Source: Rhodobacteraceae bacterium HTCC2083 (GTDB lineage Bacteria; Pseudomonadota; Alphaproteobacteria; Rhodobacterales; Rhodobacteraceae). Taken from it: a stretch of 64,000 nt of DNA. Both the position numbers and the translations under genes were made by a program. Below are positions 18,763-41,949 of this stretch, piece by piece. The notes under the pieces are model-generated. The model searched no databases. It worked only from the letters and a program-made list of their open reading frames with translations, and was not told the origin of the DNA. The stretch is taken from positions 190,017 to 254,016 of the forward strand of contig DS995276.1 in the NCBI GenBank assembly GCA_000156115.1, given 5' to 3'. Numbering within the stretch: the stretch's first letter is position 1; every line of letters begins with the position of its first letter.

Positions 18763-18764
18763 GC

Positions 18765-22103: not shown

Positions 22104-23246
22104 CTAATTTGCGCGGCAACACACCTGCCGCAAAATCCGCGCGACGTTGCCCATGTAGGCATCATTATAGCCTGCGTCATTTTCAAGCACGCTGAGAAAG
22201 GCGCAAGATGTTCCAGTTTCCATATCCACCATTAGGAATTGACCACCATAACCAGCATGCGCGACTACACGGCCATCAGTCATCACTTGATTTGAATACC
22301 TGAGCCACGCTTTGGGCGGTGGAAGCGAAGGCGCAGATCGCTCAAGGCTATCATTGAGGAAAGTGGCATTGGCGACAGGTTGTCCAATCAGATCACGCCC
22401 CGATCGTGCCAGAAAAAGACCAAAGCGTGCCAGATCACGGGCACTCAGGCACCCACCCCCTGAAAACGCAGGATACCCATCCTTGCTGCAACTGATATGA
22501 AACGCACCCTCAAACCCGACCGCATCCGCGATCCGTTCAATTTGTGCGGACAGTGGGATAGGCGAAACAGCTGCGGCGATCAGGGTCAGCACATCGGTAT
22601 TTGCGGATTTGTATTCTGCCTCTATGCGCCCATTGCTCGGTTTGAAACCAGTGATGTTGTTTGCAAAATCCATTAGCGTGATTTCGTTTTGCCCCTGCGC
22701 GGGCAAGCGCCACCCTAGTGCTATCTCTTCGCTGTAGCAGTCAGAGTCTGGATCGCTGTAATCTTCGCTAAAATCATTGCTGACAGCCATATCCAATAGA
22801 GCTTGAACAGTTGCGTCGCGATACCCCGACCCTATCTCAGGCAGGTAGCGAGACACCTTAGCCTCCAACGATATCAGCCCCTGCTGCAGCAATTGACCCA
22901 AGATCAAATGGACATGCATCTTCGTCACGGATTGTATGGAATGGGGATGGGTCACAGAAAAGTCAGGGGCGGCAGCTTCCATAATGATCTTGTCACCGCG
23001 CAGGCAACAAAAAGCAGAAAACGCAGGATGCGCGAACAGTTCGTCCAATTCCGTGGATTGTGGAGCTGCTTTCGCATCGACAGCTTCAAGCAGTAGAACG
23101 TCGCGCGCGCGCACCATCAAAGTGCGCCGGAACAAATTATGTGCGTTGTGGAACCCATGGCGGCGATGGCTCGGCTGGTTCCAGCGCTGTTTATTGTTTG
23201 CTCCAACAGCAAGGTCAGGATTGGGAGCAGTCTTAAGCTGTCTCAT
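22104..23246 (-). CDS. Serine hydrolase, class C beta-lactamase fold
   Basis: Beta-lactamase-related serine hydrolase (380 residues from ATG 23246). The nucleophile motif is S106-V-T-K109 (SIQSVTKMH), a Tyr-containing motif is YKSANTDVL near 215, and a C-terminal HAGYGGQF stands in the KTG position. The first 40 residues are rich in charged residues and do not look like a signal peptide, so the start may be later, for example Met44. The ATG overlaps the stop of the acyl-CoA synthetase gene. In catabolic operons such proteins act as esterases, lactonases or amidases; beta-lactam resistance is not implied. Confidence 0.83.
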   Translation of the reverse strand: MRQLKTAPNPDLAVGANNKQRWNQPSHRRHGFHNAHNLFRRTLMVRARDVLLLEAVDAKAAPQSTELDELFAHPAFSAFCCLRGDKIIMEAAAPDFSVTHPHSIQSVTKMHVHLILGQLLQQGLISLEAKVSRYLPEIGSGYRDATVQALLDMAVSNDFSEDYSDPDSDCYSEEIALGWRLPAQGQNEITLMDFANNITGFKPSNGRIEAEYKSANTDVLTLIAAAVSPIPLSAQIERIADAVGFEGAFHISCSKDGYPAFSGGGCLSARDLARFGLFLARSGRDLIGQPVANATFLNDSLERSAPSLPPPKAWLRYSNQVMTDGRVVAHAGYGGQFLMVDMETGTSCAFLSVLENDAGYNDAYMGNVARILRQVCCRAN

Positions 23247-25333
23247 GACGCCACCATGTGGACCAGCGCATCTACAGCGACAATATGATCTGCGTAAACG
23301 AACATCGGATTGATTTCTATCTCAGCAACCTTTGCGCGCTCTTCAAGATACGCATCGCACAATTGGTGCAGTGCGGTTGCGATTTCTTCAAGGTCAGCAA
23401 CCACGCGCCCTCGAAACCCGTTGAGCAATCGTGCGACCCGCAAGGAGCCAAGCGCCTCGGCTATGTCGGCAGGCGTTGCTGGCAGGAGCAACGTCACAGC
23501 GTCCCCCACCAGTTCCGTCAGTATCCCACCGCTACCAAGCACCAAAGCGGGCCCAAATTGCGGATCTGAGCGCAAGGTTACAATCAGCTCAGCCAATGGC
23601 AGAGGCGACATAGCTTCAATCAGAAAGCTGTCCGAGAGGGCATTCACATCATGCTGTGCGACTGAGCGTGTCATGCGCGTCAGCGCAATGCCTAATGCCT
23701 CTTTATCGTTAATGCCTAAAGCTACTGCCCCAGCCTCAGTCTTATGGGCAAGGTCCAGCGACATCATCTTCAGTGCTACGGGATAGCCGATTTTTGTTGC
23801 AGCATCATCCGCGTCTACTGCCGCAACAGTGCGCCCGTTAGGAACACGAACGCCCCGCGCTGAGAGCCACGCCTTGCCTGCATCCTCGGTGAGCATGCTT
23901 AGTGTTTCTGCCGCCTCGCTCGGCAACAATCCTGCGGGCCAGTCGGCCAAAATACGTTGCCGCCGGTTTGACCAAATGGCTGCGTCGCGCATTGCGTTCA
24001 GCGCCTCGTGGATGCCCTGCATGGGGGCCACACCGAGCGAGATCAAATGCCTGCGCGTTGCTTTGTCCAAGTTCTCTGGCAATGTCGCGCAAATGGATGC
24101 GGGAATACCATGCTCTTTCGCAGCTCGCGCGAAAGCGCCTGCGTCGTTTTGATAATACACCTTTGAGGCATCCAGCCCTTCTGCAGGATAATCCTGTACC
24201 AAAACGGCCGCCTCTGCCCCAACGGTTTCCATCGTTTTGGCAAAGACCGGATACGTATGCTCTGCCTGCCCCCAAATCGGCGTTGTGTAATCGAGTGGAT
24301 TCGACACGGTGGCGATATCAGGCAGCAAGTCTTGCAGGCGCGCGTGACCCTCTGCGCTCACTTTGGGAAAGCTCAAGCCAATCTTCTCCGCATGATCCGC
24401 TAGCATCGTCGCGCCGCCGCCCGAGCATGTGAACCCGGTGACGCTTGGTGCTTTGGGTGCCTTCACAACGCAAAGGTATTTCAACGTTTCTATGAATTGC
24501 GCGGGGCTGGTCACGCTAATCACACCTGAGCGCGCAAACAGCGCCTCGTAGAGCTCATCTGAACCCGACAGCGAGCCTGTGTGACTCACCGTCAATGCCG
24601 CCCCTATGGCTGAGCTGCCTGTCTTAAGCGCAACCACGGCTATGCCACGTTCAATTGCTTTCAAGGCGGCGCGCTCAAAAGCCTGAATGTCTTGCAACCC
24701 TTCGATATGCAGTCCGATTGCACGCACGCTTGCATCGTCTGCGAAGACGTCCAGAAAATCCTCGAGCCCAAGCACAGCTTGATTGCCCGCAGACACCATG
24801 TAAGCAAGCGGCAGAGACCGTGCGCTCATTGTGATATCTGAAGAAAACATGCCCGATTGCGTTATGATCGCGGCGCCATAGCCGGGTGACCAACCTCCAT
24901 GCTCGAAGGACCAAAGAGCCACGTTGTCTATGTAGTTGATCAACCCGTAACAATTTGGGCCGATTAGGGCCATGTCACCAGCCGCTTCGATCAGGGCTTG
25001 TTCAGCGGCCGCATCGCCAGTTTCTTTGAAGCCTGCGGAAAAGCAAACGACGCCACCAACGCCGATCGCGGCCAACTCGCTCAGGGCTGCAACAATCCCG
25101 TCTGCAGGAATTGCCAGATAAACCGCATCAGGCACTTGGGGCAAATCGGCGATAGACGGAACGCAAGGCACGCCGTCCAAGTCTGCACGCTTAGGGTTAA
25201 CCGCCCACATTTGTCCATCAAATCCACGTCTGCGCGCTTCGCGCACAGCGATCAGCGCATCGCGCCCGCCGACAAAGGCGATATTACGCGGTTTGAGCAA
25301 ACGCTGAAAATTGGCACTGCGTTCAGGTGTCAT
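23243..25333 (-). CDS. NDP-forming acyl-CoA synthetase, fused subunits
   Basis: A 696-residue acetate-CoA ligase (ADP-forming) type protein. It has an N-terminal CoA-binding Rossmann domain (VGGRDALIAVREARRRGF), succinyl-CoA ligase-like domains with SHTGSLSG containing the phosphorylated His, and a C-terminal ATP-grasp domain (about 480-690, GYPVALKMMSLDLAHKTEAG). It makes acyl-CoA from a carboxylic acid reversibly with NTP. It overlaps both neighbours by 4 bp (acyl-CoA dehydrogenase upstream, serine hydrolase downstream). With that dehydrogenase it suggests CoA activation and desaturation of an imported acid, such as a betaine carboxylate. Confidence 0.92.
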   Translation of the reverse strand: MTPERSANFQRLLKPRNIAFVGGRDALIAVREARRRGFDGQMWAVNPKRADLDGVPCVPSIADLPQVPDAVYLAIPADGIVAALSELAAIGVGGVVCFSAGFKETGDAAAEQALIEAAGDMALIGPNCYGLINYIDNVALWSFEHGGWSPGYGAAIITQSGMFSSDITMSARSLPLAYMVSAGNQAVLGLEDFLDVFADDASVRAIGLHIEGLQDIQAFERAALKAIERGIAVVALKTGSSAIGAALTVSHTGSLSGSDELYEALFARSGVISVTSPAQFIETLKYLCVVKAPKAPSVTGFTCSGGGATMLADHAEKIGLSFPKVSAEGHARLQDLLPDIATVSNPLDYTTPIWGQAEHTYPVFAKTMETVGAEAAVLVQDYPAEGLDASKVYYQNDAGAFARAAKEHGIPASICATLPENLDKATRRHLISLGVAPMQGIHEALNAMRDAAIWSNRRQRILADWPAGLLPSEAAETLSMLTEDAGKAWLSARGVRVPNGRTVAAVDADDAATKIGYPVALKMMSLDLAHKTEAGAVALGINDKEALGIALTRMTRSVAQHDVNALSDSFLIEAMSPLPLAELIVTLRSDPQFGPALVLGSGGILTELVGDAVTLLLPATPADIAEALGSLRVARLLNGFRGRVVADLEEIATALHQLCDAYLEERAKVAEIEINPMFVYADHIVAVDALVHMVAS

Positions 25334-26490
25334 GCACCAAGGGGCCGCAAAATTGAACGTGTGATGATATGGCGCTGAATTTCGGAAGTGCCATCCCAGA
25401 TACGTTCAAGGCGACTATCACGCCAGAACCGCTGGATCGGCATTTCTTCCATCAATCCCATGCCACCGTAAATTTGAACTGTATCATCCGCGATCTTACA
25501 GAGCATTTCCGAGCAGAACACTTTGATCATCGCTGCATCCGCATCGCTCATTACGCCCTGCTCTGCGCGCGCTACGGCATCTTTCACCATCAGATCAGCG
25601 GCGCGAAGCTGGATCGCGCCATCTGCTAGACGGAAACCTGTCGCTTGAAAGGCACCAATCGGTTTGCCGAATTGCTTGCGTGAGGCAGCCCAATCTGTGG
25701 CCATGTCCAAGATACGCTCTGCCTTACCGCAGCACGTCGCCCCGACCCAGATACGCCCCATGCCAAGCCATTTGCCAGAGAGTTCCAAGCCACGCCCTTC
25801 TTCACCAAGAACTTGCTTAGGCCCAAGGCGCACATTATCGAAATGCAGCTCAAACGTCTTGTAGCCGCGATAACTGACGCACTTCGTGCCTTCACGGCAC
25901 TCAAATCCCTTGGCACCCACATCGACCAAAAAAGCCGTAACACGTTTGCGCGGCCCACGTGGGGTTTCATCCTCGCCGGTTGCTGCAAAAACAATTGCGA
26001 AATCAGGCATGCACGGACCGGAAATGAAATGCTTGGAGCCATTCAAGATCCAGTCATCCCCATCGCGTCGCGCGTTGGACTTCATCCCCATCACGTCAGA
26101 GCCTGCATCAGGTTCGGTCAGCGCGAACAACTCTCGCTTTTCACCGCGCACGGCGGGCAGCAAATACTTCTCGCGCTGATCCCCCTCGCAAGCCATCAGC
26201 AATTCCGTCGGGCGCGCCGCCCAGCTTTGCAATGCATGGCTAGTACGTCCATATTCACGTTCAATGAGCGACATTTGCGCAATGCCCAAGCCACCGCCAC
26301 CAACCTTCTCGGGCAGGTTACAGGCATAAAGGCCAAGTTCATGGGCCTTGTCCGCAATCTGCTTGCCGATCTCATCTGGCACATAACCAAGACGATCCAC
26401 CTCTTCTTCGTGCGGATACATCTCTGTTTCAACAAAGCGGCGCACCGTGCTGATCAGGAGTTCGGTTTCGTGGCTGGTTTCCATATTCAT
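25330..26490 (-). CDS. Acyl-CoA dehydrogenase
   Basis: Flavoprotein of 386 residues with the acyl-CoA dehydrogenase signatures FALTEPDAGSDVMGM in the middle and YGGMGLMEEMPIQRFWRD plus WDGTSEIQRH near the C-terminus. It introduces an alpha-beta double bond in an acyl-CoA. ATG 26490 (MNMETSHE) is used; the extension to 26634 overlaps the permease gene and is not family sequence. It follows the PotC-like gene by 12 bp. With the CaiD-like dehydratase at 33.4 kb it would parallel the gamma-butyrobetainyl-CoA to carnitinyl-CoA steps. Confidence 0.93.
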   Translation of the reverse strand: MNMETSHETELLISTVRRFVETEMYPHEEEVDRLGYVPDEIGKQIADKAHELGLYACNLPEKVGGGGLGIAQMSLIEREYGRTSHALQSWAARPTELLMACEGDQREKYLLPAVRGEKRELFALTEPDAGSDVMGMKSNARRDGDDWILNGSKHFISGPCMPDFAIVFAATGEDETPRGPRKRVTAFLVDVGAKGFECREGTKCVSYRGYKTFELHFDNVRLGPKQVLGEEGRGLELSGKWLGMGRIWVGATCCGKAERILDMATDWAASRKQFGKPIGAFQATGFRLADGAIQLRAADLMVKDAVARAEQGVMSDADAAMIKVFCSEMLCKIADDTVQIYGGMGLMEEMPIQRFWRDSRLERIWDGTSEIQRHIITRSILRPLGA

Positions 26491-26501
26491 AATAGGTTCC
26501 T

Positions 26502-27299
26502 TTACGAGGCGGCGCGCTTCTCGCTGCGCCGCGACAGGATCGCGGACACAACAAAGGCAATGAGGGTGATAGCGATCAGGACCACCGCCGCAGCGGCCAC
26601 TGTGGGATCGGTGTTTTCGCGGATGCCGTTCCACATGCGGCGCGGCAAGGTGTAGACGCTGTATTTTGAGATAAAGAGCGTGACGACGATTTCATCCCAG
26701 CTGAGGATGAAGGCAAATAACGCACCCGCAAAAACTCCTGGTTTGATTGAGGGCAGGATCACACGGTGCATCGTGGTCCAGTTAGACGCGCCTAAATTTT
26801 TGGATGCTTGTTCTAGTTTGGGATCAAAGGTCGCGAGCGACGCGCTGACAGTGATCAGAACCATGGGCGCGGCAAGGATTGTATGCGCTAGGATCAACCC
26901 CGCATAGCTATCGAGCAGGCCGAGCGGTATCCAAAGACGGTAAAACGCCATGGCGGAAATAATCTGGGGAATGATAAGAGGCATTAATAGGAACGCCCGC
27001 ACCAATTCAGAATATTTCGAAGACACCCGCCACAGGCCAATCGCACAAAGGGTGCCAAGGAAAGTTGCCAGTAATGAAGTAGAAATCGCAATGACGCCGC
27101 TCTGAAAGAAGCTGGATATCCACTCTTCACTGGTGAAAAGCTTTTCGAAATGACGCAGGGATAGCTCACCCTTGGGCATGCTGAGGAAACGCTTGGGCGT
27201 CAGCGAAACAGGGATCGCAATTAGGGCAGGCGTCACAAGAAAGAGCAGCAAAATCCATGCGCCAACGCGATTGAAATGTGTGAACAATCCAGACTTCAA
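26502..27299 (-). CDS. ABC transporter permease, PotC type
   Basis: Inner-membrane permease of about 265 residues with six hydrophobic segments and the EAA-loop sequence LGASNWTTMHRVILPSIKPG. It resembles PotC of polyamine/betaine importers. No ATG fits the N-terminus: a TTG at 27299 overlaps the upstream permease stop and begins just before the first membrane segment, while the ATG at 27410 lies well inside the upstream gene. Forms the channel with the PotB-type gene directly upstream. Confidence 0.88.
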   Translation of the reverse strand: MKSGLFTHFNRVGAWILLLFLVTPALIAIPVSLTPKRFLSMPKGELSLRHFEKLFTSEEWISSFFQSGVIAISTSLLATFLGTLCAIGLWRVSSKYSELVRAFLLMPLIIPQIISAMAFYRLWIPLGLLDSYAGLILAHTILAAPMVLITVSASLATFDPKLEQASKNLGASNWTTMHRVILPSIKPGVFAGALFAFILSWDEIVVTLFISKYSVYTLPRRMWNGIRENTDPTVAAAAVVLIAITLIAFVVSAILSRRSEKRAAS

Positions 27300-28144
27300 C
27301 GCGCGGCTCCCCCAAAGACGGTCGAGAGCTTCATAAACCGTGACATCACCCAGAGCATTGCAAGTACGCCAAACAGCATCAGCGCTGCCAACATCGCCGC
27401 CGTGCCCCATTTGAGCGTGACCAGCAATTGCACAGAGATATATTCAGCCACCATGAGGACTTTGCCCCCGCCTAAGACCGCGGGTGTCACATAAAAGCCA
27501 AGGCTGAGAATGAAGACCAGCAAGGTTGAAGCGACAAGCCCCGGCGTTGTCAACGGCAAGTATATGCGCCAGAAGGTCTGGCTTCCGCTCGCGCCAAGAT
27601 TGCGCGAGGCATCCATGACACGGGTGTCCAACGATTGCATCGACACCAAGAGCGGCAGCACTGCATAAGGGATCATGTAGTGGATCATGCCAATCAGCAC
27701 CCCGAGTTCGTTGCGCATGAAGGCGATGGGCTCTGCAATCAATCCGATATCTTCTAGCGTGACATTCACAAGGCCTTTGCGGCCCAGCAGCATCAGCCAA
27801 GAAAACGTACGCACGAGTATAGAAATCCAAAAGGACACAAGCAGCAGCGTCAGCATATAGCTCTTTTGGCGCTGGTGGCAGTGCACCATGGCATAGGCGA
27901 TGGAATAACCTAGCGTGACACTAAACAGGGTTGTGATGATACAGATGCGCACCGTGGTCCAAACAATGCGCAGCAATGCATCGCTTTCGCCTAGCTTGGC
28001 ATAATTGCCCAAACCCGGTTCAGGGTCAGTCACACTCAACCACAGGATATTCAGGATCGGGCCCAAATACAAAAGCGTCACCAGTGCCAAAAGCGGCGCG
28101 ATGATCAACCATCCAGGGTGCATATGTTTGGTAAGCGCGTTCAT
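27296..28144 (-). CDS. ABC transporter permease, PotB type
   Basis: Permease of 282 residues with six membrane segments and the EAA motif LGASGSQTFWRIYLPLTTPG. Its partner overlaps its stop by 4 bp. Together with the receptor (28.2-29.3 kb) and ATPase (29.4-30.4 kb) it makes a complete Pot-type importer; substrates of such systems include polyamines, glycine betaine-like and other cationic compounds. The specificity here is unknown. Confidence 0.9.
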   Translation of the reverse strand: MNALTKHMHPGWLIIAPLLALVTLLYLGPILNILWLSVTDPEPGLGNYAKLGESDALLRIVWTTVRICIITTLFSVTLGYSIAYAMVHCHQRQKSYMLTLLLVSFWISILVRTFSWLMLLGRKGLVNVTLEDIGLIAEPIAFMRNELGVLIGMIHYMIPYAVLPLLVSMQSLDTRVMDASRNLGASGSQTFWRIYLPLTTPGLVASTLLVFILSLGFYVTPAVLGGGKVLMVAEYISVQLLVTLKWGTAAMLAALMLFGVLAMLWVMSRFMKLSTVFGGAAR

Positions 28145-28164
28145 GTGAATTCCGGTGCTGCAGA

Positions 28165-28202
28165 TACATGGCGGCCCGCAGGAAGGCCCGGGCCGCCATG
28201 TA
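28165..28202 (-). promoter_or_regulatory. Stem-loop after the ABC receptor gene
   Basis: Perfect 13-bp arms TACATGGCGGCCC / GGGCCGCCATGTA with a 12-nt loop, between the receptor stop and the PotB start. No T-run follows in either direction, so it more likely stabilises receptor mRNA and limits read-through than terminates fully. Confidence 0.65.
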
Positions 28203-28211
28203 TTGGGTAGG

Positions 28212-29318
28212 TTAACTAATGGCTTCGAGGAACGCGTTCACCGCGTCGCCGCCATTTTTACCCCACCAGTCAGGATCGTTGTAAACGATCTTATCGATGT
28301 TTTTCGCAGAGGTGATCGCATAGTCCTGCTGATCCTCTGGGATTTGACCGAAAGCTTCTGGATTAGACGGCGTCATGCCAAGGCAATCGAGCAGAGCAAG
28401 CTGCGCAGGAACCTCTTGCGCAGTCGCGATGAATTCCATCACCGCAGCGCCAGCAGGGTTGCCTTTGGGCACAATGTAAGCACCGGGCATCGCAATCGCT
28501 TGCATGTTCACCAATTTGTAGCGCCCATCAGTGTCATTCTCGATGTTGCGACCACGGTTTTGCCAAACCATACCCATTGAGACTTCGCCGTTCACGACCA
28601 TCGAATGCGCCTCAGAGCCTGAACCCCAGTAGAGGCTGTCGTCCTTGATCGACTTTAGCTTTGCCAAGGCACGATCCATGTCGAGCGGGTAAAGCGCGTC
28701 ACCAGATACGCCATCCGCCAACAAGGCTGCTTCGAGCGAGCCATTGGCCCATTTGTAAAGGGAACGCATGCCCGGGAATTTCTCAGTATCAAAGAAATCC
28801 GCCCAGTTTTGCGGTGGGTTGTCGCCATAAACCTCAGTGTCATAGACAAAGGCATAGCCATAAAGGATCACGGACACGCCATGCTCCAGCGCGTAGCCGG
28901 GCAATGTTTTGTCTTTGGAAACAACAGAGTAATCAATCGGCTCAAGATGGCCAGTTGGGCCAAGCGATACCGCGTTGAACAGGTCGGCATCTGCTACGTC
29001 AGCAGTCACATTGCCGCTATCGACCATCTCTTTGATCTTACCCTCAAGCGGGCCGGATGTGTCGAATTTCAAACCTTTGCCAGTCTCAGCTGTGAACGCG
29101 TCACCAATGGCAGAGCCGTGGCATTCCTCGGACTGACCGCCCCAGTTCCACATGACCACATGATCGGCGGCAGCTTGAGCATCGCCTGCCATCACGGAAC
29201 TCATCGCAACGCCAGACGCGCCGCAAAGCGCGAGAAACATGCGGCGGTCCATGCGACCAGCTTTGTAGGCGTGCGCGCTGTCCGTTAGCATCTCTTTCAT
29301 GAATTGTTTATCTTGCAT
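28212..29318 (-). CDS. ABC transporter solute-binding protein, PotD/PotF type
   Basis: Periplasmic receptor of 368 residues. The N-terminus has a long leader with a twin-arginine-like motif (MDRRMFLALCGASG, residues about 23-36) and AQAAA cleavage near 50, so Tat export is likely. Mature sequence opens VVMWNWGGQSEECHG, typical of the spermidine/putrescine-type receptors (family 1 fold), and contains a tryptophan-rich middle (NPPQNWADFFD) that could form an aromatic cage for a quaternary amine. A Shine-Dalgarno AGGAGA precedes the ATG. Followed by a strong stem-loop, then permeases. Confidence 0.9.
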   Translation of the reverse strand: MQDKQFMKEMLTDSAHAYKAGRMDRRMFLALCGASGVAMSSVMAGDAQAAADHVVMWNWGGQSEECHGSAIGDAFTAETGKGLKFDTSGPLEGKIKEMVDSGNVTADVADADLFNAVSLGPTGHLEPIDYSVVSKDKTLPGYALEHGVSVILYGYAFVYDTEVYGDNPPQNWADFFDTEKFPGMRSLYKWANGSLEAALLADGVSGDALYPLDMDRALAKLKSIKDDSLYWGSGSEAHSMVVNGEVSMGMVWQNRGRNIENDTDGRYKLVNMQAIAMPGAYIVPKGNPAGAAVMEFIATAQEVPAQLALLDCLGMTPSNPEAFGQIPEDQQDYAITSAKNIDKIVYNDPDWWGKNGGDAVNAFLEAIS

Positions 29319-29395
29319 TCTTCTCTCCTATTGGTGCGCGGGAAAATGCCCGCCAGTTGGTCGCGGCGCCTTTTGGCGCTCTCGTTTGGGCTCGT

Positions 29396-31280: not shown

Positions 31281-31400
31281 TAGGCGGGGCCCTCCTTTTG
31301 TTCAGATTGGCGTGCAACACATCAAAAAACTTATCGATTATTCGACGGACTTTCGGCTATAGTGACGAAAAAACGCACCAAAACTCGCGGATCCAGACAC

Positions 31401-34228: not shown

Positions 34229-34239
34229 TGGCGCCCTCC

Positions 34240-35274
34240 TTATTTGAATTCTGGCATGACTTCGTTCACGAACATGCGCAGCGACTTTTGCTGTGATGCA
34301 TGATCCAGCCCCATTGAGGCGTAATAGATGAATTCATTCACGCCCAGCGCCTCGTATTTCTTGAGCTTTTCAATGACGCGTTCAGGAGAACCGAACATCA
34401 GATTTACTTCAAGCATTGCCGGATCATACTGCTCGCGGCCCTCTAGTTGCTCCAGAGGAATGGACGCGGGAAAGCCGTTTTTCACATCGCCAAGGTTGCG
34501 ATAGAGATTTTCAAACTGGCTAAGCAAACGGCGAATGGAATTCATCGCGTTTTCCCTATCCACTTCATTATCGTACACGCAGGCATGGCGCATCAGAGCA
34601 AAGCGCGGGTTCCAACCGTTGTCAGCCTTTGCGATAGCTTCATCGAGATGCTTTTTGTAAAGCTCGGCTTCTTCAAAGGAGCGCGTGAAGGGCCAACAGT
34701 TCACATGGCATTTCTCGCGCATTGCGTAATCGTAGGTGATGGGTGAGCGCGCGGCGACCCAAACAGGGACTTCAGATTGAACCGGTTTTGGCACGGACGT
34801 CGATGTCGGGAACTGCCAGTACTCGCCGTCATGCTCGTAATCGCCCTGCCATAGCGCGCGAACTGCAGGCAGCATCTCTTGCATGTAACGCCACGCATCA
34901 GATTGCTTGAGGCCCGGCTTCATACGATCAAATTCACGTTGATACGCTCCAGACCCAATGCCAAACTCAAGCCGCCCGCCGCTGACCAAATCAGTGAACG
35001 CCGCTTCGCCAGCCAGATTAATCGGATGCCAATAGGCTGCGGTTGCGACGGCAGTGCCCAAACGAATGCGGCTGGTTTCAGTTGACCACCATGTCAACAA
35101 TTGAAAGGGGTTCGGCGCGATGGTCATTTCCAATGCGTGGTGCTCGGCTGACCAAACAATGTCGAAGCCGCCGTCTTCAGCAATTTGCACCATTTCAAGC
35201 GTGTGGCGTGCAACGTCGTTCATGTCCAGACTATCATCAATCCGTTCCATGTTCACAGCAAGTTGGAATTTCAT
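34240..35274 (-). CDS. LLM-class flavin-dependent monooxygenase
   Basis: Luciferase-like monooxygenase of 344 residues: VWSAEHHALEM, IRLGTAVATAAYWHPINLAGEAAFTDLVSGGRLEFGIGSG split over the barrel, and a C-terminal VNEFIYYASMGLDH. It is from a different subgroup than the enzyme at 19.4-20.6 kb. It needs FMNH2; the flavin-reductase domain fused to CaiB at 40.4 kb is the natural partner. ATG 35274 (MKFQLAVNM) is used rather than 35313. Lies between the Rieske gene and the CaiD-like gene in one leftward run. Expected to oxygenate a nitrogen compound or ring; substrate unknown. Confidence 0.9.
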   Translation of the reverse strand: MKFQLAVNMERIDDSLDMNDVARHTLEMVQIAEDGGFDIVWSAEHHALEMTIAPNPFQLLTWWSTETSRIRLGTAVATAAYWHPINLAGEAAFTDLVSGGRLEFGIGSGAYQREFDRMKPGLKQSDAWRYMQEMLPAVRALWQGDYEHDGEYWQFPTSTSVPKPVQSEVPVWVAARSPITYDYAMREKCHVNCWPFTRSFEEAELYKKHLDEAIAKADNGWNPRFALMRHACVYDNEVDRENAMNSIRRLLSQFENLYRNLGDVKNGFPASIPLEQLEGREQYDPAMLEVNLMFGSPERVIEKLKKYEALGVNEFIYYASMGLDHASQQKSLRMFVNEVMPEFK

Positions 35275-35321
35275 GTCAGGGTCCTTTCGGGTGAAGTTTT
35301 CAAAGTGTTTCAATCGTTTTA

Positions 35322-36428
35322 TCAGCGTACCAACGGGTAAAGACCTGCCACATTGGGTTCCAGCAAAGGCTTGAAATGGTCTTGGCCTGCATCAGGATGC
35401 GCCAGCCCAAGGTGCTGGGTTTCAAGGGCGGGAATGTCTTCGGCCAACGCTGCATCAAGTCGGCTATGATAAGCCGCAACTTTCGCGTCTGCGCCCTTGA
35501 AAGCCAGCGTTTCTGGCGGGAAGCACGCGGTTTGCACAACTTTGCAGCGATTTGGCCCTAAAGGATAAGCCTCATAAACCCAGAGGGCATCGGTGCCAGC
35601 CGCAAACGTCAAATTCGGGAAAGCCCAAGTATAGCGCACGCCCGCTGATTCGCGCCCACTCAACGGTAGCGCCATGTCCTGCTCATCTTGCAACAGGCCA
35701 CCTGTCCCTTCGGTCGCACCGAATTGGGTCACAAAATCACCCGCCACTTGATCAGGCGTTTCGGGCGGGTTGTAGACATCACCGATGCTATCAGGATACA
35801 CAAACGGCAGGTGGTAGTATTCGTTAAAGACTTCGAGAAAGGCTTTCCAATTAAATGCGACCTCAAGCACTTCACGGCGTGTGCTAACAACCGTTTCCAG
35901 CAGCCAAGGCGCATGGAGATCTGCAAAATTTCTCAGAAAGTAATCAAGCTCTGGCGCATCAGTATATAAGCAAACAAAGACGAAACCCAAACGTTCCTCG
36001 GCGTGGTAGTGGATCAACCCATTTTCGGCCTTATCAAACCCATCAACCTCATCCATGGGCGGCGCAGCAACAAGCGACCCGTCCAAACGATAGGCCCATG
36101 AATGAAACGGGCAACGAATGCCCCGGCAATTGCTTGTCCCATCCAGCAGACGCATCGCGCGATGGCGGCAAGTATTAGCAAGCGCTTGGAGTTTCCCCGA
36201 TTGGTCGCATACCAGAATGATCGACATACCGGCGACGTCCAAAGCGACATAATCCCCTTTTTCCTTAAGCTGATCAGCGCGGCCCACGCCAAACCAGTCA
36301 CCGCGAAAGAGGTGATCGATCTCGACTGTCGTCACCTCAGGGTCCACATAGCAGGCTGGTGGCAGTGACACGATGCAACTCGCCGTACGCAACCCTTCCA
36401 GAGATGATTTCAGAACCGCAGTGTTCAT
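35322..36428 (-). CDS. Rieske non-heme iron oxygenase, alpha subunit
   Basis: A 368-residue Rieske oxygenase alpha subunit. The [2Fe-2S] site is complete: C-R-H (NTCRHRAM) and C-P-F-H (CPFHSWAY). The mononuclear iron motif reads NEYYHLPFVYPD, so the first His is present but the usual second His four residues on is Tyr (TAT codon), and the C-terminal acid is in AEDIPALE. Relatives demethylate betaines (GbcA, stachydrine demethylase, CntA) or hydroxylate aromatics. No ferredoxin reductase is nearby. It overlaps the aldehyde dehydrogenase gene by 4 bp. Confidence 0.88.
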   Translation of the reverse strand: MNTAVLKSSLEGLRTASCIVSLPPACYVDPEVTTVEIDHLFRGDWFGVGRADQLKEKGDYVALDVAGMSIILVCDQSGKLQALANTCRHRAMRLLDGTSNCRGIRCPFHSWAYRLDGSLVAAPPMDEVDGFDKAENGLIHYHAEERLGFVFVCLYTDAPELDYFLRNFADLHAPWLLETVVSTRREVLEVAFNWKAFLEVFNEYYHLPFVYPDSIGDVYNPPETPDQVAGDFVTQFGATEGTGGLLQDEQDMALPLSGRESAGVRYTWAFPNLTFAAGTDALWVYEAYPLGPNRCKVVQTACFPPETLAFKGADAKVAAYHSRLDAALAEDIPALETQHLGLAHPDAGQDHFKPLLEPNVAGLYPLVR

Positions 36429-37906
36429 CGCATCACGAATGGATTGGCCATCGGCTCATCTGAGGTGTTCATCCAAATGGTTTTTGGCCGTGTGTAGTCA
36501 TAGATTGCTTGGAAGCCGCTTTCGCGCCCATAACCCGATCCTTTGACACCGCCAAACTCCGCGATAGGTGATACAACGCGGTAGGTATTCACCCAAACGA
36601 TGCCAGCGCGGACTGATCCCGCCATACGCAGCGACCGCGCGCTGTCTTTGGTAAATATGCCAGCCGCCAAACCATGCTCGCTGTCGTTGGCCCGCGCGAG
36701 TACTTCTTCTTCGGTTTTGAAGCGTTGCACGGACAGGACCGGGCCGAAAAGCTCTGTATCAACGATACGCAAATCCTGCCGAGGGCATTCGATTATCGTG
36801 GGCTCATAATATAGACCATCCATACCTTCAGGCTGCTTGCCTCCGACGAGGACTACACCGCCCTCGCTTTGGGCGTGCGCCACCTCGCGCTGGATATTTT
36901 CCAGCTGACCTGTTGTGCAGAGCGGCCCCATCTGCGTGGCATCTTCAAGCGGGTCGCCAATTACGATCTGCTTGGCTAAAGTGATCATCTTTTCAAGGAA
37001 TTCGTCTGCGATATCTTCATGCAGATAGAGCCGTGAACCCGCCACGCAGCTTTGACCAGTCGCGCCGAAAATTCCAGCAATCGAGGCGTTAACCGCGCTT
37101 TCGATATTTGCATCGTCAAAGACGATAAACGGCGACTTGCCACCCAGCTCCAGAGAGACCTCAGCGAAGTTACGTTTCACATTCTCAAGCACATGGCGCG
37201 CAGCATTCGGGCCACCGGTGAAAGACACGCGCGCAACGAGCGGATGCCCCGTTAAGGCACGCCCGCAAGGCTCACCGTGGCCAGTTACGATGTTCACCAC
37301 ACCGGGCGGAATACCTGCCGCCTCAACCAATTTGCCAAACTCCAACATCGCGGCGCTTGCATGCTCGGAAGCCTTAAGAACAACCGTATTACCCGCCGCG
37401 AGAGCAGGCCCAATTTTGACAGCGACCAAGAAAAGCTGCGAATTCCACGGGACCACAGCGGCGACGACTCCCAATGGCTCACGTTTGGTGAAGACAAACA
37501 TATCAGGCTTATCGATTGGCAGCGTTTCGCCGCTAACCTTGTCAGCGCAGCCCGCAAAAAAGTGCAGGAATTCAGCGATATACGTCGCCTGCCAGCGGGT
37601 TTCCTTAAGCATCTTGCCCGTATCTATGGACTCGGTCCGTCCCAGAAGTTCGGAATTTTCGGCCAACAAATCACCCAATTTACGTAGGCATTTGCCGCGC
37701 TCTGTCGGGGTCATTTTGGACCATGGGCCTGTCGAAAAGGCCGCATGGGCTGTTTCAACGGAGCGGTTCACATCAGCTTCGGTCGCTTCAGGAACGCGGC
37801 TCCAGACTTTGCCATCTGCGGGGTTCACACTGTCAAATGTGCCGCCATCGGACGCATCGACCCACTCTCCGTTGATCAGCATTTGGTAACTTGTGATATC
37901 CGCCAT
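36425..37906 (-). CDS. NAD(P)-dependent aldehyde dehydrogenase
   Basis: Classical aldehyde dehydrogenase of 493 residues: VPWNSQLFLV, Glu motif LELGGKSPFIV, catalytic Cys in GATGQSCVAGSR, and ELFGPVLSV near the end. It resembles betaine-aldehyde, 4-trimethylaminobutyraldehyde and hydroxymuconic-semialdehyde dehydrogenases. In a carnitine-like pathway it could supply gamma-butyrobetaine from its aldehyde; in a ring-cleavage pathway it could oxidise a semialdehyde. It is the first gene of the leftward run, divergent from RidA across about 140 bp. Confidence 0.92.
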   Translation of the reverse strand: MADITSYQMLINGEWVDASDGGTFDSVNPADGKVWSRVPEATEADVNRSVETAHAAFSTGPWSKMTPTERGKCLRKLGDLLAENSELLGRTESIDTGKMLKETRWQATYIAEFLHFFAGCADKVSGETLPIDKPDMFVFTKREPLGVVAAVVPWNSQLFLVAVKIGPALAAGNTVVLKASEHASAAMLEFGKLVEAAGIPPGVVNIVTGHGEPCGRALTGHPLVARVSFTGGPNAARHVLENVKRNFAEVSLELGGKSPFIVFDDANIESAVNASIAGIFGATGQSCVAGSRLYLHEDIADEFLEKMITLAKQIVIGDPLEDATQMGPLCTTGQLENIQREVAHAQSEGGVVLVGGKQPEGMDGLYYEPTIIECPRQDLRIVDTELFGPVLSVQRFKTEEEVLARANDSEHGLAAGIFTKDSARSLRMAGSVRAGIVWVNTYRVVSPIAEFGGVKGSGYGRESGFQAIYDYTRPKTIWMNTSDEPMANPFVMR

Positions 37907-38049
37907 TGTGCGAGTCTCCCCCGTTTGTTGCCTTGTTATTCATGTCCGCTTTGTTTTCGGACGTACCAGAAAAAACGACACGAGCTGTCGAAAAATCCGA
38001 AACTGCTATTTCAGGATCGGGGCAGGTTGGCCGCAAGGGAGGCTGGGAC

Positions 38050-38448
38050 ATGAATAAGAAAAAGCAAATTATCGGAGGGCCGCTAGAAATCGGTGGGCGG
38101 GTTTTGTCGCTCTCGCGAGCGATCCGCGCTGGCGATTTTGTATACCTCACAGGTCAAATCCCAATGAAAAACGGCGTCCCGATGACCGACGGTTCGGTTG
38201 AAGATCAAACACGCGCTGTGCTTGATGACATCACCGCCACTTTGGCCGAAGCTGGCTGCGTGCGCGATGACGTGATCAAGGCGATGGTCTGGCTTCGTGA
38301 TCGCAGTGATTTCGCAGGTTTCAATGCCGTTTATGGCGAATACTTCCCGATCGAACCGCCGATCCGCTCAGCAGTGGTGAGTGATCTGCTGGTAGATGCA
38401 CGTGTTGAGGTTGAGGTGGTTGCGTACCGCCCTTTAGACAATGCATAG
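38050..38448 (+). CDS. RidA-family (YjgF/YER057c) protein
   Basis: RidA/RutC-type protein of 132 residues: GDFVYLTGQIPM, the Arg-containing PPIRSAVV that binds the substrate carboxylate, and VEVEVVAYRP at the end. RidA proteins hydrolyse enamine/imine intermediates; RutC has a similar place in the pyrimidine pathway. ATG 38050 (MNKKKQ) is used; the frame extension to 37906 is not family sequence. It overlaps the next gene by 8 bp and opens the rightward operon. Confidence 0.9.
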   Translation: MNKKKQIIGGPLEIGGRVLSLSRAIRAGDFVYLTGQIPMKNGVPMTDGSVEDQTRAVLDDITATLAEAGCVRDDVIKAMVWLRDRSDFAGFNAVYGEYFPIEPPIRSAVVSDLLVDARVEVEVVAYRPLDNA

Positions 38449-39241
38449 AGCACCAGACGGCACCGCCTATGATCTAAATGGCCCTGACAATGCTCCAGTG
38501 GTCGTACTTATTCATGGTTTGGGATTGAACCGCGCGAGCTGGCAATGGACGGTGCCTGCGTTGACAGATCACTACCGCGTGCTCAGCTATGATCTTTATG
38601 GTCACGGGCAAAGCGCGCCGCCAAGTGACACACCCAACCTAACGTTTTTCTCGCAGCAATTATCCACCCTATTGGATCATTGCGGCATGGATACCGCCGT
38701 TCTTGCGGGCTTCTCACTTGGCGGAATGATCGCGCGCCGCTTCGCCCAAGATGCACCTGACCGCACAGACGCATTGGTGATACTGCATTCCCCACATAAG
38801 CGCAGCCCAGAAGCACAAGACGCCATTCTCAAACGCGTAGAACAGGCCTGCCTTGAGGGACCGAATTCCACTGTTGAAGCCGCTTTAGAGCGTTGGTTTA
38901 CACGTGATTTCAGGCAAGCCAACCCCGACATGATGGATACGGTTCGCCGCTGGGTCACCGCTAACGACATCGCCATTTATCACACGATCTACCGCGTTCT
39001 CGCGGATGGAATTGATGAAATCACCGCCCCTACCCCGCCGATTACATGCCCAACTTTGGTCATCACAGGCGACGAGGACTATGGCAATGGCCCAGAAATG
39101 ACCCATGCGATCGCGCGTGAAATAGACGGGGCTCAGACCATGATCTTGAGCGGGCTTCGTCACATGGCACTGGCCGAAGCCCCTGATGCAATTAACGCGC
39201 CCTTGCGATCCTTTCTTGAGAAATTGGACAGTCAAAAATGA
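38441..39241 (+). CDS. Alpha/beta hydrolase (RutD / enol-lactonase-like)
   Basis: Alpha/beta hydrolase of 266 residues with HGLGLNRASWQW (oxyanion), nucleophile elbow GFSLGGM, acid in ITGDEDYGNGPE and His in GLRHMALAEAP. It falls among 3-oxoadipate enol-lactonase-like hydrolases, the same broad group as RutD. Overlaps RidA upstream and the CaiB fusion downstream by 4 bp. Likely hydrolyses an ester, lactone, carbamate or thioester in the pathway. Confidence 0.9.
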   Translation: MHRAPDGTAYDLNGPDNAPVVVLIHGLGLNRASWQWTVPALTDHYRVLSYDLYGHGQSAPPSDTPNLTFFSQQLSTLLDHCGMDTAVLAGFSLGGMIARRFAQDAPDRTDALVILHSPHKRSPEAQDAILKRVEQACLEGPNSTVEAALERWFTRDFRQANPDMMDTVRRWVTANDIAIYHTIYRVLADGIDEITAPTPPITCPTLVITGDEDYGNGPEMTHAIAREIDGAQTMILSGLRHMALAEAPDAINAPLRSFLEKLDSQK

Positions 39242-41334
39242 GCACACAAATCCTCAAAGGTCTGCGCGTTTTGGACCTAAGCCGTATGTTGTCTGGCCCT
39301 TATTGCACCATGCATCTGGCCGATCACGGCGCGGAAGTGATCAAGATAGAAGCGGGCAGCGGTGATACAAGTCGTGGCAACGGCCCCTTTCGCGACGATG
39401 ATGTGAGCCATGAATGGGCAGGCTATTTTGTTAGCTTGAACCGTGGTAAGAAAAGCATTCAACTCGACCTTAAGACACCCGAAGGAAAAGCGCATTTTCG
39501 CGCGCTTGCCGCGAATGCAGATGTTATCGTCGAGAACTTTCGACCGGGCGTGATGGACCGGCTTGACCTGTCCTATGAATCGCTTTCGGCGGATAACCCA
39601 AAGCTGGTTTATGCTGCCATCCGAGGGTTTGGCGATCCACGCACAGGCGAGAGCCCCTATGCCAAATGGCCCTCCTACGATGTAGTTGCGCAGGCAATGG
39701 GCGGCTTGATGGCAATCACAGGAGCGAATGCGGATAGCCCGACCAAAACAGGCCCCGGTGTCGGCGATATTTTTGCAGGTATGGTGATGGCCTTTGGCAT
39801 CATGGCGGCGCTGCGCGAGGCTGATGCGACGGGAAAAGGTCAATTCGTAGACGTGGCGATGTATGACGCGATGATTTCACTGTGCGAACGTATGGTCTAT
39901 CTCCACGACATCACAGGAAAAGTGCCAGGCCCAGAAGGCAACGGGCATCCCTTCCTTAGCCCCTTCGGGCTCTACCCTGCTAAGGACGGCCAAATCGCGC
40001 TTGGTATTGTAGATGATGCGTTTTGGCAGCGTTTGGCAGAACTTATGCGGCAACCAGAGCTTGGCCCAGACCCTCGTTTTGCCACACGTGCGCAGCGAGC
40101 AAAAAACGCGGCTGAAATAGACCGTGTCGTTTCCGCATGGAGCTCGCAATTGAGCAAAGCAGAGTTGACTAGCCTACTCGGGGGGCAAGTTCCATTTGGC
40201 CCGCTCAACACGATTGCGGACATCGCCAATGATACACATGTGGCTTCGCGCGAAATGCTGGCAAAAGTCAGCGGTCCTGATCCATCCCAAAAACCTTGGA
40301 CGGTTGCGGCCAATCCATTGCGCTTTAGCGCACATGGTCATGGACCGTTGGCACCACCCCCTGCGCTTGGCGCGGACAACACGATGCTTGATAGCCTGAC
40401 ACCAAAAACGCCGATGGACCCCGAAATCAAACGGAGCCTGCGCGATGCCTTTGGCCGCTTTGCCACGGGCGTTACCATCGTAACTACGCGCCAAGAGGAC
40501 GGCACACCGCGTGGTTTTACAGCAAACTCTTTCACGTCAGTGTCTCTGGACCCGCCGCTCTTGCTTGTATGTATCGGCAAAGCAGCCCACTCTTGCGATA
40601 CCTTCGCCAGTTCCGAGCACTTCACAGTCAACATTCTGGCAGACGATCAAAAAGATGTCTCCGGGCTGTTCGCATCGCAATCAACACAGAAGTTCGACAT
40701 CGCAAAATGGCACGCCGATGAGCAGGACATGCCTGTCATTAACGGCGCACTCGCGAGCTTTAGCTGCACAAATCATAAGCTTGTGGATGCGGGCGATCAC
40801 CTTATCCTCATTGGCCGCGTCTTGGACTTTGAGACCGAAGACGGCAGACCGCTCGGATATTACAAAGGGTCATACTTTGACATTGGCCTCGACCGCGCTG
40901 TGACGGAGGCCGCTACAACAGGCGGCGGTACTGTCGCGGCGGTGCTGTCTCATGAAAATGGTTTGCTGCTCACCGAAGATGCGGACGGCAACCTTTTGCT
41001 GCCTACAGCACAGTCAATGAACGAATTAGTGCAGAGCTTCAAAGGGAGCGGCCTGACGCCGGAGCTCGCGCATCTCTATGCCGTTTACCAAGTAGGAGGC
41101 ACGAGCTCGCAGCGCATTGTGTATCATGGGGTCGTGCAAGGCACCCCAGGCAAAACACAAAATTTCTATGCTCTGGGAGAGCTGCCGTTTGAGCGTATTA
41201 ACGATAAGGCTGAACGCTCGCTTTTGCGTCGATATGCGAAGGAAAACCAACATGGCTCCTTTGGCATTTACCACGGAACAGAGGATGAAGGGGTCGTTCA
41301 CAGACTCGCCGGACACCACAAATACCACGTCTAA
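39238..41334 (+). CDS. CaiB-type CoA transferase fused to RutF-like flavin reductase
   Basis: A 698-residue fusion. Residues 1 to about 390 are a family III (CaiB/BaiF) CoA transferase with LSRMLSGPYCTMHLADHGAEV at the start and the region of the catalytic Asp in GPGVGDIFAGM. About 398-560 are a DIM6/NTAB-type flavin reductase (GRFATGVTIVTT, TANSFTSVSLDPPLLL, FTVNILADDQ). About 575-698 are a further domain seen in longer flavin reductases (GLLLTEDADG, Nudix-like in pattern). The frame is continuous with no stop at the join near 39238+1180. The parts are normally separate proteins. It could supply FMNH2 to the LLM enzyme and move CoA in the same operon. Confidence 0.88.
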   Translation: MSTQILKGLRVLDLSRMLSGPYCTMHLADHGAEVIKIEAGSGDTSRGNGPFRDDDVSHEWAGYFVSLNRGKKSIQLDLKTPEGKAHFRALAANADVIVENFRPGVMDRLDLSYESLSADNPKLVYAAIRGFGDPRTGESPYAKWPSYDVVAQAMGGLMAITGANADSPTKTGPGVGDIFAGMVMAFGIMAALREADATGKGQFVDVAMYDAMISLCERMVYLHDITGKVPGPEGNGHPFLSPFGLYPAKDGQIALGIVDDAFWQRLAELMRQPELGPDPRFATRAQRAKNAAEIDRVVSAWSSQLSKAELTSLLGGQVPFGPLNTIADIANDTHVASREMLAKVSGPDPSQKPWTVAANPLRFSAHGHGPLAPPPALGADNTMLDSLTPKTPMDPEIKRSLRDAFGRFATGVTIVTTRQEDGTPRGFTANSFTSVSLDPPLLLVCIGKAAHSCDTFASSEHFTVNILADDQKDVSGLFASQSTQKFDIAKWHADEQDMPVINGALASFSCTNHKLVDAGDHLILIGRVLDFETEDGRPLGYYKGSYFDIGLDRAVTEAATTGGGTVAAVLSHENGLLLTEDADGNLLLPTAQSMNELVQSFKGSGLTPELAHLYAVYQVGGTSSQRIVYHGVVQGTPGKTQNFYALGELPFERINDKAERSLLRRYAKENQHGSFGIYHGTEDEGVVHRLAGHHKYHV

Positions 41335-41346
41335 CAGGAGAATTAT

Positions 41347-41949
41347 ATGATACCGGAACTGCGCAAAATCGTCACCTTTGACGAAGACATCCACACCGAA
41401 GGCGGTCGCGCCTCTGACCCCGTCTTGCGCATGATTGGCGTTGCGGCTGTGGTTAAGAACCCTTGGGCGGGCCTCGGGTTTATTGAAGATCTGCAACCTG
41501 AAATCCGCCGTATGGCCCCTGTTTTAGGCGAACTGCTGTCGGATCGTTTGATTGAATTGGCCGGTTCCGGCGATGCGATCGAAGCCTACGGAAAAGCCTG
41601 TATTGCGGGTACTAGCTGCGAAGTCGAACATGCCTCAGCGCTCATTCACACTCTGCATTTCGGCAATTTCTACCGTGAAGCCGTCGGGGCCAAAAGCTAT
41701 CTTGGATTCACAAACACGCGCGGCCCCGCAAACACGCAAATTCAAATTCCACTCATGGACAAACACGATACGGGTCGCCGCTCGCATTATCTCACGGTTC
41801 AGTTTTCGATCTATGACGCACCGGCTGTTGACGAACTCGTCGTTGCGCTTGGCGCCGCGACGCGTGGGCGCCCACACCATCGGATTGGTGATCGCTATTC
41901 AGATTTGGCTTCTCTGGGCCGAGATGTAGAGAACCCCGCTGGGGTCTGA
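41347..41949 (+). CDS. DUF1185 'amino acid synthesis' family protein
   Basis: Protein of 200 residues matching DUF1185 in length and pattern: RKIVTFDEDIHTEGG at the start, AVVKNPWAG, YGKACIAGTSCEVEHASALIHT and ATRGRPHHRIGDRYSD at the end. The family is labelled 'amino acid synthesis' without a proven reaction and often travels with flavin reductases and LLM enzymes. A Shine-Dalgarno (AACAGGAGAA) precedes the ATG. Last gene of the rightward operon, with mobile-element remnants beginning about 30 bp downstream. Confidence 0.85.
   Translation: MIPELRKIVTFDEDIHTEGGRASDPVLRMIGVAAVVKNPWAGLGFIEDLQPEIRRMAPVLGELLSDRLIELAGSGDAIEAYGKACIAGTSCEVEHASALIHTLHFGNFYREAVGAKSYLGFTNTRGPANTQIQIPLMDKHDTGRRSHYLTVQFSIYDAPAVDELVVALGAATRGRPHHRIGDRYSDLASLGRDVENPAGV

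Follow-up and report, generated by a model that had tools for sequence, protein, structure and literature searches.

Described systems that come close to the gene cluster reported here include the trigonelline-type (Tgn) opening of an N-methylated ring, the Rut pathway, and the coenzyme A (CoA) route for carnitine and gamma-butyrobetaine. The cluster occupies positions 22104–41949 of a 64,000-nucleotide stretch from Rhodobacteraceae bacterium HTCC2083, called the window throughout (bases 190017–254016 of a 3.95 Mb contig in a 4.0 Mb genome). An earlier note made from the sequence had described there a carnitine-type set of genes, a Pot importer, a regulator and an oxidative set; Pfam matches were found for all the listed families, and the observation of a two-set cluster is confirmed. 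As set out below, both operons almost certainly belong to one regulon under one putative shared control signal, and we lean cautiously towards a regulon for an imported N-methylated, carboxylated N-heteroaromatic betaine of the homarine or trigonelline type. The parts are known singly and the combination of modules is the new element; no description of both modules together was found in the literature searched, which covered few subscription papers.

The trigonelline comparison comes from S. meliloti, whose pSymA carries in one row (locus L025) genes for a DUF1185 protein, a hydrolase, a flavin reductase, a luciferase-like (LLM) flavin-dependent monooxygenase, an aldehyde dehydrogenase (ALDH), a Pot importer and a succinate-semialdehyde dehydrogenase (SSADH; 695 bits, above the subfamily cut-off of 646). 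The flavin reductase is that of PDB entry 3rh7, with a match over all 308 residues given. According to PMC4207669, S. meliloti without pSymA does not grow on trigonelline, and a 1991 title in the reference list of PMC12093977 places trigonelline genes on pSym. From the gene row, the 3rh7 match, the growth loss and that title, we infer that L025 is the trigonelline cluster. The window shares with this Tgn-type system the set of LLM, flavin reductase, ALDH, alpha/beta hydrolase and DUF1185 protein, as well as the Pot importer, at identities of 65% (DUF1185), 56% (ALDH), 38% (LLM), 37% (flavin reductase) and 30% (hydrolase). Relative to L025, it adds a RidA protein, a CaiB domain, an enoyl-CoA hydratase (ECH), a carnitine-dehydrogenase-like enzyme (DH), a beta-keto acid cleavage enzyme (BKACE), an acyl-CoA dehydrogenase (ACAD) and an acyl-CoA synthetase (ACS). 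The window cluster contains no counterpart to the SSADH of L025; elsewhere in the genome (L004) lies a gene for an ALDH with 65% identity to that SSADH.

The oxidative set had also been said to parallel Rut, and only the Tgn side of that parallel held. LLM, flavin reductase, RidA and alpha/beta hydrolase are shared with the Rut pathway, but the Rut models all score below cut-off in the window (RutC 51 of 169 bits, RutD 63 of 238, RutF 88 of 255), and we rejected the Rut pathway on these scores; RutA was not among the 25 LLM families listed of 31. A placement of the oxidative half nearer to the trigonelline type than to the Rut type is supported by these comparisons, and the half is predicted, with fair confidence, to open an N-methylated ring.

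The CoA half consists of the enzyme families of the carnitine/gamma-butyrobetaine route, and its BKACE (30390–31280, minus strand; PF05853) is 52–65% identical to carnitine-type enzymes. It differs from that route in its DH and BKACE, which fall into sister clades with changed residues, in the absence of a recognizable thioesterase and in its tie to an LLM. The DH (32478–33428, minus strand; 3-hydroxyacyl-CoA dehydrogenase family) misses both carnitine equivalog models (303 of 414 and 250 of 592 bits). The CaiD-like ECH (33425–34228, minus strand; 296 of 500 bits) and the ACAD (25330–26634, minus strand; 168 of 540 bits) are likewise below the carnitine-model cut-offs; since their counterparts in a cluster of genus g331 that contains a true L-carnitine DH miss them too (ECH 334 of 500, ACAD 202 of 540), these two misses say little and only the DH result counts. 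In the BKACE tree, 65 LLM-associated rows lie on one side and two carnitine-type groups outside (support 92/45, 100% of bootstrap trees), and the DH tree shows the same split (support 92/92, 93% of bootstrap trees). By these trees, DH and BKACE are sister clades beside the carnitine enzymes, not within them. The earlier note had named a position of DH, BKACE and ECH outside carnitine-type clades as a result that would speak against its reading; the trees, which covered DH and BKACE, place both outside.

Substitutions at two positions follow the same division. BKACE position 173 is Arg in all 65 LLM-associated rows and Trp in all 12 carnitine-type rows. These 12 rows stand for 11 distinct genes and were called carnitine-type from their clade; in two cases the neighbouring DH was scored as well. 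Trp also occurs in three of four members of a further group at 48–50% identity, and visual comparison of alignments places an Asp there in Kce (2y7d), a lysine-fermentation enzyme. At DH position 230, 66 of 71 LLM-associated rows have Met and the other 5 have Trp, which is also the residue in all 6 carnitine-type rows. From these alignments we infer that a trimethylammonium pocket may have been remade for a carboxylate-bearing head, with position 173 as a putative head-group contact; Arg173 suggests that the head of the beta-keto acid is anionic rather than trimethylammonium.

These results bear directly on the route that had first been proposed, from gamma-butyrobetaine or carnitine to glycine betaine and acetoacetate with accessory oxygenases, which we now consider highly improbable. 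Its family composition speaks for it, as does the g331 cluster, which comprises GlxA, BKACE, DH, a protein of ~165 aa, ACAD and ECH: its BKACE is 63–65% identical to that of the window and stands beside a DH that passes the L-carnitine DH model in the one case scored (L210/G570; 555 bits, cut-off 414), while its ECH and ACAD fail the CaiD and CaiA models just as those of the window do. However, the window DH misses its models, Trp is replaced by Arg in BKACE and by Met in 66 of 71 DHs, and the same genome holds a separate carnitine 3-dehydrogenase (699 bits, cut-off 592) adjoining another BKACE. In addition, no thioesterase domain was found by Pfam among the 18 cluster proteins, although the serine hydrolase could replace a betainyl-CoA thioesterase. 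The carnitine pathway proper was rejected on the DH model misses, the separate carnitine pair, and the residues and trees of BKACE and DH; an ending in glycine betaine is not supported. A third DH–BKACE pair of this genome lies at G000:C5:1134092-1135929 (L138), with 182 bits to PRK07531 for the DH and 36% identity to the window BKACE. Loci L209, L210, L211 and L213, from four genomes of one Alphaproteobacteria genus (three without LLM at E 1e-40), combine a carnitine-DH-type enzyme, BKACE, ACAD and ECH, and their gene content makes a gamma-butyrobetaine CoA route probable. The g331 cluster may show what the ancestor of the CoA half looked like.

The arrangement recurs in other genomes. We scanned one genome per species at E 1e-3, which gave 497 stretches encoding an LLM relative, and analyzed the best 80 (L057–L136); these LLM-centred loci all belong to genomes other than that of the window, many are cut by contig ends, and genes were called above identity thresholds. 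ALDH, LLM, ECH, DH (3HCDH), BKACE, ACAD and ACS are all present in 41 of the 80, with individual counts of 71 for ALDH, 57 for ECH, 55 for DH, 47 for BKACE, 44 for ACAD and 42 for ACS. The Parasedimentitalea plasmid pW43B carries the same genes in the same order, all but the Rieske gene. Aminobacter pSR3 keeps the order as well, without the Rieske gene, an in-line CoA-transferase domain or the serine hydrolase; its flavin reductase stands alone, and an acetoacetate-CoA ligase gene (752 bits, cut-off 521) follows ACS at the operon end. This recurrence of the same gene order is more than chance. CaiB and flavin reductase domains are fused in 31 of the 80 loci and both present but unfused in one; nine have flavin reductase without CaiB. 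A strict tie of the CoA-transferase to the CoA half was rejected, as it is absent in several full clusters and present in the ring-only locus L071. Beside the pSR3 cluster (L021:4307-13111) lie electron transfer flavoprotein (ETF) genes and genes for a CoA ester lyase, MaoC, a CoA-transferase, an acyl-CoA dehydrogenase and MmgE/PrpD, a set resembling an itaconate/mesaconate route.

Co-occurrence was assessed in a sample of 295 genomes of the family. The LLM (59–100% identity) is found in 29, the window-type ECH (66–100%) in 12, and the window-type BKACE in the same 12 (63–100%; the next matches, from 56% downwards, are of the carnitine type). All 12 also have the LLM: in the family sample the CoA half is found only together with the LLM module. 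The corresponding hypergeometric value of 7e-14 is valid only for independent genomes and ignores kinship and linkage; since the genomes are related and the genes mostly linked, the cases in which the halves are split weigh more. Five genomes keep both halves at separate places. In Ruegeria pomeroyi SZCCDBG043 (G295), a distance of 1.47 Mb separates BKACE-importer-ACAD-ACS-hydrolase from the locus with ALDH-LLM-ECH-DH and the rightward operon; G299 and G300 have a complete CoA half with importer apart from the ring half; and in G301 and G303 BKACE-ACAD-ACS is on another contig. G300, G301 and G303 are drafts with the halves on different contigs, and G297 and G245, both cut by contig ends, are not counted among the five. 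Outside the family, distant ECH matches (57–69% identity) occur in 11 genomes; an LLM match at E 1e-40 accompanies the ECH in seven of them (six at 53–66%, one at 38%) and is lacking in four. Three of these four are g331 genomes with the carnitine-type cluster, and the fourth, G326, shows only the ECH in 20 kb; one further g331 genome has both the carnitine-type cluster and an LLM.

The second line of evidence for a single unit is a two-part site, TTTTCGNCA followed by GKCGNWWWW, that precedes both ALDH and BKACE. In the window, operator 1 (37971–37994, minus strand; TTTTCGNCA-N6-GKCGNWWWW) lies in the divergent ALDH/RidA promoter and operator 2 (31338–31371, minus strand; TTTTCGNCA-N16-GKCGNWWWW) upstream of BKACE, both with 0 mismatches; a one-mismatch site at 18581–18605 is probably due to chance. 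With at most one mismatch, the motif was found in 67 of 96 ALDH and 63 of 79 BKACE upstream regions, sets that contain near-duplicates from related loci, against means of 0.1 and 0.05 in base-shuffled controls. Within L057–L136 alone, the motif is found in 51 of 64 ALDH and 36 of 46 BKACE regions, and of the 41 loci that include both promoters, 33 have the two sites. At ALDH the two parts are separated by 6 (64 cases) or 7 (3) nucleotides, at BKACE by 16 (55) or 17 (8), a difference of about one helical turn. Because the motif was first spotted by eye in the very sequences counted, shuffling is a weak control and the spacer test the stronger one: with the spacers exchanged, the composite motif remained in only 7 of 96 ALDH and 4 of 79 BKACE regions, and when spacers of 0–25 were counted in 2.1 Mb, spacer 6 gave 75 sites, spacer 16 gave 58, spacer 17 gave 17 and the others 0–14. 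The half-site GKCGNWWWWTCG alone occurs in 24 of 96 ALDH and 53 of 79 BKACE regions, and the composite motif is the clearer signal. Ten of 12 LLM-only promoters examined lack the site; the exceptions, L186 and L196, have a window-like divergent arrangement. In G295, the operator is present at both loci, 1.47 Mb apart, and within the two 20-kb stretches a GlxA gene was found only at the LLM locus. Co-occurrence, split loci, the CaiB–flavin reductase fusion and the shared operator together bear out the earlier view of the two sets as one unit, and we consider it rather likely that both halves act on one substrate.

The split loci also invite another explanation, namely two pathways in one regulon, with a ring route of the homarine or trigonelline type beside an independent carnitine-like acid route for a second osmolyte, the two being induced jointly because the same algae would supply both substrates. 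In G299 and G300 the separate loci each have their own GlxA and ABC importer genes, as two pathways would, and ring-only genomes exist. Yet close window-type ECH and BKACE never occur without the LLM among the 295 genomes, CaiB and flavin reductase are fused, and the same operator is found at unlinked loci; we judge two pathways improbable. Distant half-like sets without LLM at E 1e-40 are present in G473, G570 and G346, and the DH scored among them (G570) is a true L-carnitine DH.

For a single substrate, we propose the following pathway, in which each chemical step is read from enzyme family and neighbouring genes. The proposed ring opening follows Tgn chemistry. FMNH2 would come from the flavin reductase domain of the fusion and serve the LLM oxygenase, which would open an N-methylpyridinium-type ring; ALDH would oxidize the freed aldehyde, the alpha/beta hydrolase would remove the N-formyl group, and RidA would speed methylamine loss from the enamine. 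The resulting acid would receive CoA from the CaiB-type transferase domain or the ADP-forming ligase, and the acyl-CoA would be desaturated by ACAD and hydrated by ECH. The 3-hydroxy acid, released free, would be oxidized by the carnitine-dehydrogenase-like enzyme, after which BKACE would cleave the beta-keto acid with acetyl-CoA to acetoacetate and an acyl-CoA, from which the transferase may recycle the CoA. Acetoacetate, already suggested as a product in the earlier note, is supported indirectly by the BKACE and by the acetoacetate-CoA ligase at the end of the Aminobacter operon. That a Tgn-type opening is coupled, through the CoA-transferase–flavin reductase fusion, to a re-specialized carnitine-derived CoA/BKACE route for a carboxylate-headed acid, giving methylamine and acetoacetate by an undescribed marine route, is a tentative proposal.

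The order of the two halves is less firmly placed than their unity. We put ring opening first, as a possibility short of an even chance, because the BKACE appears suited to an acid head and the closest matches of the CoA-transferase are dicarboxylate enzymes, and because the ALDH gene of G090, L121 and L122 keeps company with ECH-DH-BKACE while the LLM gene closes the other operon. For the reverse order, the imported compound would have to be a carnitine analogue with a ring, namely a pyridinium carboxylate bearing an acid chain of four carbons. The CoA half would shorten this chain to an acetic-acid stub and acetoacetate, the CoA-transferase would free the stub, and flavin reductase and LLM would then open the ring. 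Such a scheme would account for the one-way dependence, in which the CoA half occurs only with the LLM and the LLM is often alone, for the Pot importer standing with the BKACE part in G295, G299 and G300 (three of the five genomes with split halves), for the fusion of CoA-transferase to flavin reductase and for the sister position of BKACE and DH to carnitine enzymes. We nevertheless think it unlikely: the mgs/gmaS-like neighbours described below point to an N-methyl group rather than an N-linked acid chain, G301 and G303 have no Pot importer beside BKACE, and the placement of ALDH in G090, L121 and L122 runs the other way. Moreover, no abundant marine compound with such a structure is known to us.

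Homarine-type compounds are one candidate for the substrate of the ring half. Ferrer-Gonzalez et al. are said to have described a homarine catabolic pathway in Nat Microbiol in 2026, which has in common with our proposal marine bacteria, an N-methylpyridine betaine and an N-methylglutamate link; the ring half could be that pathway. The presence of RidA would suit a substrate that opens to an alpha-enamine, as in the homarine type. Methylamine-assimilation-like genes are found beside several clusters: L027 and its near-twin L061 have a GS-III/gmaS-like gene (652 bits, cut-off 470; model TIGR03105, which we take to be GmaS) and three mgs-like genes, L100 and L103 have two mgs-like genes before the locus ends, and the ring-only L189 has three. 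The GS-III gene alone stands beside the cluster in L034, L037, L121, L122 and L129. We matched the mgs-like genes to what we presume to be the MgsABC subunit sizes, and it tells against the argument that the label depends on size, order and one weak NCBIfam glutamate synthase match. PMC13390433 reports a role of Mgd in homarine catabolism.

Further points stand against the betaine regulon as proposed. Known homarine and trigonelline ring opening leads to 2-oxoglutarate or succinate semialdehyde, for which no BKACE would be needed, and no compound considered fits every step; glutarate/3-oxoglutarate, 3-oxoadipate, gonyol, N-methylglutamate and nicotianine were tried on paper as substrate or intermediate, and none explains every gene. 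The window LLM is only 38% identical to that of L025, which sits on a very long branch in the LLM tree. The CoA-transferase is absent beside the full clusters G141, L021, L057, L069, L092 and L105, and RidA beside several, e.g. L076, L092, L099 and L115. In the family sample, the CoA half is missing from 17 of the 29 genomes with the LLM (two of the 17 are less than 90% complete), and the window-type ECH is missing from 10 of the 16 genomes examined through the loci: Pseudooceanicola G296, Roseovarius G298, the Neomegalonema-type G302 and G304–G307, and the Acidimicrobiia G308–G310. One Neomegalonema metagenome-assembled genome (MAG; L113) doubles as G054 in the family sample. Genomes that have this LLM family but only the ring half show that the ring half does not depend on the CoA half. 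An LLM subclade specific to the CoA half was rejected, as the label needs 12 changes on the LLM tree and ring-only lineages are nested. In the more distant loci L207 and L212 it is the LLM that adjoins BKACE or ECH, and ALDH lies at another place in the locus. The operator was found in the same, related sequences in which it was counted, so the counts are not independent, and the ALDH-side site is degenerate in G299 and G300 (L078, two mismatches; L079, one, on the other strand). Finally, PMC8269262 argues on steric grounds that homarine is an improbable substrate for TgnA/TgnB, and R. pomeroyi DSS-3 grew less well on homarine than on trigonelline.

By gene spacing and strand, the cluster was divided into two operons. 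The leftward one runs ALDH-Rieske-LLM-ECH-DH-BKACE-four-gene Pot importer-ACAD-ACS-serine hydrolase. Its first gene encodes the ALDH (36425–37906; 493 aa, PF00171), and the LLM (34240–35313; PF00296), the proposed ring-opening oxygenase, probably starts at Met14, ~35274, as judged from an alignment of 12 sequences. The importer comprises a PotA-like ABC ATPase (29396–30403), a periplasmic solute-binding protein of the SBP_bac_8 (PotD-like) type (28212–29318), permease 1 (27296–28144) and permease 2 (26502–27410), whose reading frame is probably over-extended into permease 1. The ACAD start is probably at ~26490, and many relatives align only from residue 45–54. The ACS (23243–25333), listed earlier simply as an acyl-CoA synthetase, has the CoA-binding, Succ_CoA_lig and ATP-grasp make-up of ADP-forming ligases. 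The last gene, for a serine hydrolase of the beta-lactamase fold (22104–23246), had been left out of that list; it is conserved in G043, G036, G141 and Parasedimentitalea. All these leftward genes are on the minus strand. On the plus strand, between DH and BKACE, lies the GlxA/GbdR-type AraC regulator (31362–32456; GbdR model 238 of 480 bits), whose start may be downstream.

The rightward operon, on the plus strand, runs RidA-alpha/beta hydrolase-CaiB/flavin reductase fusion-DUF1185. The RidA-family enamine/imine deaminase (37906–38448) probably starts at Met49, ~38050, and the best NCBIfam match of the alpha/beta hydrolase (38441–39241) is PcaD, below cut-off. What had been listed as a flavin reductase is a domain of one protein (39238–41334) fused to a CaiB-type (class III) CoA-transferase, with Pfam matches to CoA_transf_3 (residues 6–381, E 6e-122) and Flavin_Reduct (405–549, E 4e-42); residues 398–693 match PDB 3rh7. 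The best model of the CaiB domain is succinyl-CoA:mesaconate CoA-transferase, a dicarboxylate enzyme, at 408 of 700 bits, below cut-off. The DUF1185/AA_synth protein (41347–41949) is the one 65% identical to the copy in the S. meliloti trigonelline-type cluster.

The Rieske oxygenase large subunit (35322–36428, minus strand; 368 aa, Pfam) is present as listed earlier but differs from its orthologues at one iron-ligand position: the second His of HxxxxH is Tyr in the window copy and His in nine distinct orthologues (two partial). The 2-His-1-carboxylate iron site of an active Rieske oxygenase is thus not complete in this copy, and with Tyr in place of an iron-ligand His the enzyme may be inactive or altered. 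Its best phmmer matches in the PDB are carnitine monooxygenase (6y9c/6y8j), then 9o71, 3vca and 4qup, of which we take 3vca and 4qup to be the Stc2 demethylase. Orthologues (57–71% identity) occur in 8 of the 80 loci, in addition to the window and L197 (the gene in L186 is the same as that in L113); they span several lineages and mostly stand between ALDH and LLM. Because few loci carry orthologues and the window copy is altered, we rejected the Rieske gene as a core gene and treat it as accessory.

Several neighbouring features and related modules were also recorded. Adjoining the cluster, a second oxidative row (14155–20640, minus strand) contains another LLM (19435–20640) with GST, alpha/beta hydrolase, SnoaL-like, CMD, ABC ATPase and Asp/Glu-racemase-like genes, and an XRE-cupin regulator (20722–21339, plus strand) lies beside it. 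Further left, at 7326–12300, the gene for a TRAP transporter DctM-type subunit precedes that for a 1191-aa protein in which hydantoinase A and B are fused (oxoprolinase-like). A DDE transposase (13182–13748) to the left of the cluster and a tyrosine integrase with DUF6538 (45696–46931) to the right suggest a mobile or island context. In other genomes, L182–L199 represent a compact ring-only variant, ALDH-LLM-DUF1185-hydrolase, of the same family and mostly without RidA; the operator is absent where looked at, and their LLMs form one clade of 14 rows. L022, L023 and L024 (rhizobial, Azospirillum) have flavin reductase-ALDH-LLM-hydrolase-CMD modules with DUF1185 near and importers of the ProXVW or amino-acid type instead of Pot.

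The cluster recurs in marine Rhodobacterales, with Ruegeria, Roseovarius, Sulfitobacter and Planktomarina among the record titles, and LLM relatives occur beyond Rhodobacterales in other lineages. PMC8269262 describes phytoplankton betaines such as homarine as an understudied pool of carbon and nitrogen; a correction, PMC10134881, states that homarine amounts had been overstated. The clean Trp/Arg split in BKACE and an operator tying unlinked loci make the substrate question directly testable. The cluster is predicted to let the cell use, probably, a methylated ring-type osmolyte, and a regulon marking the use of one betaine would give a gene marker for its turnover.

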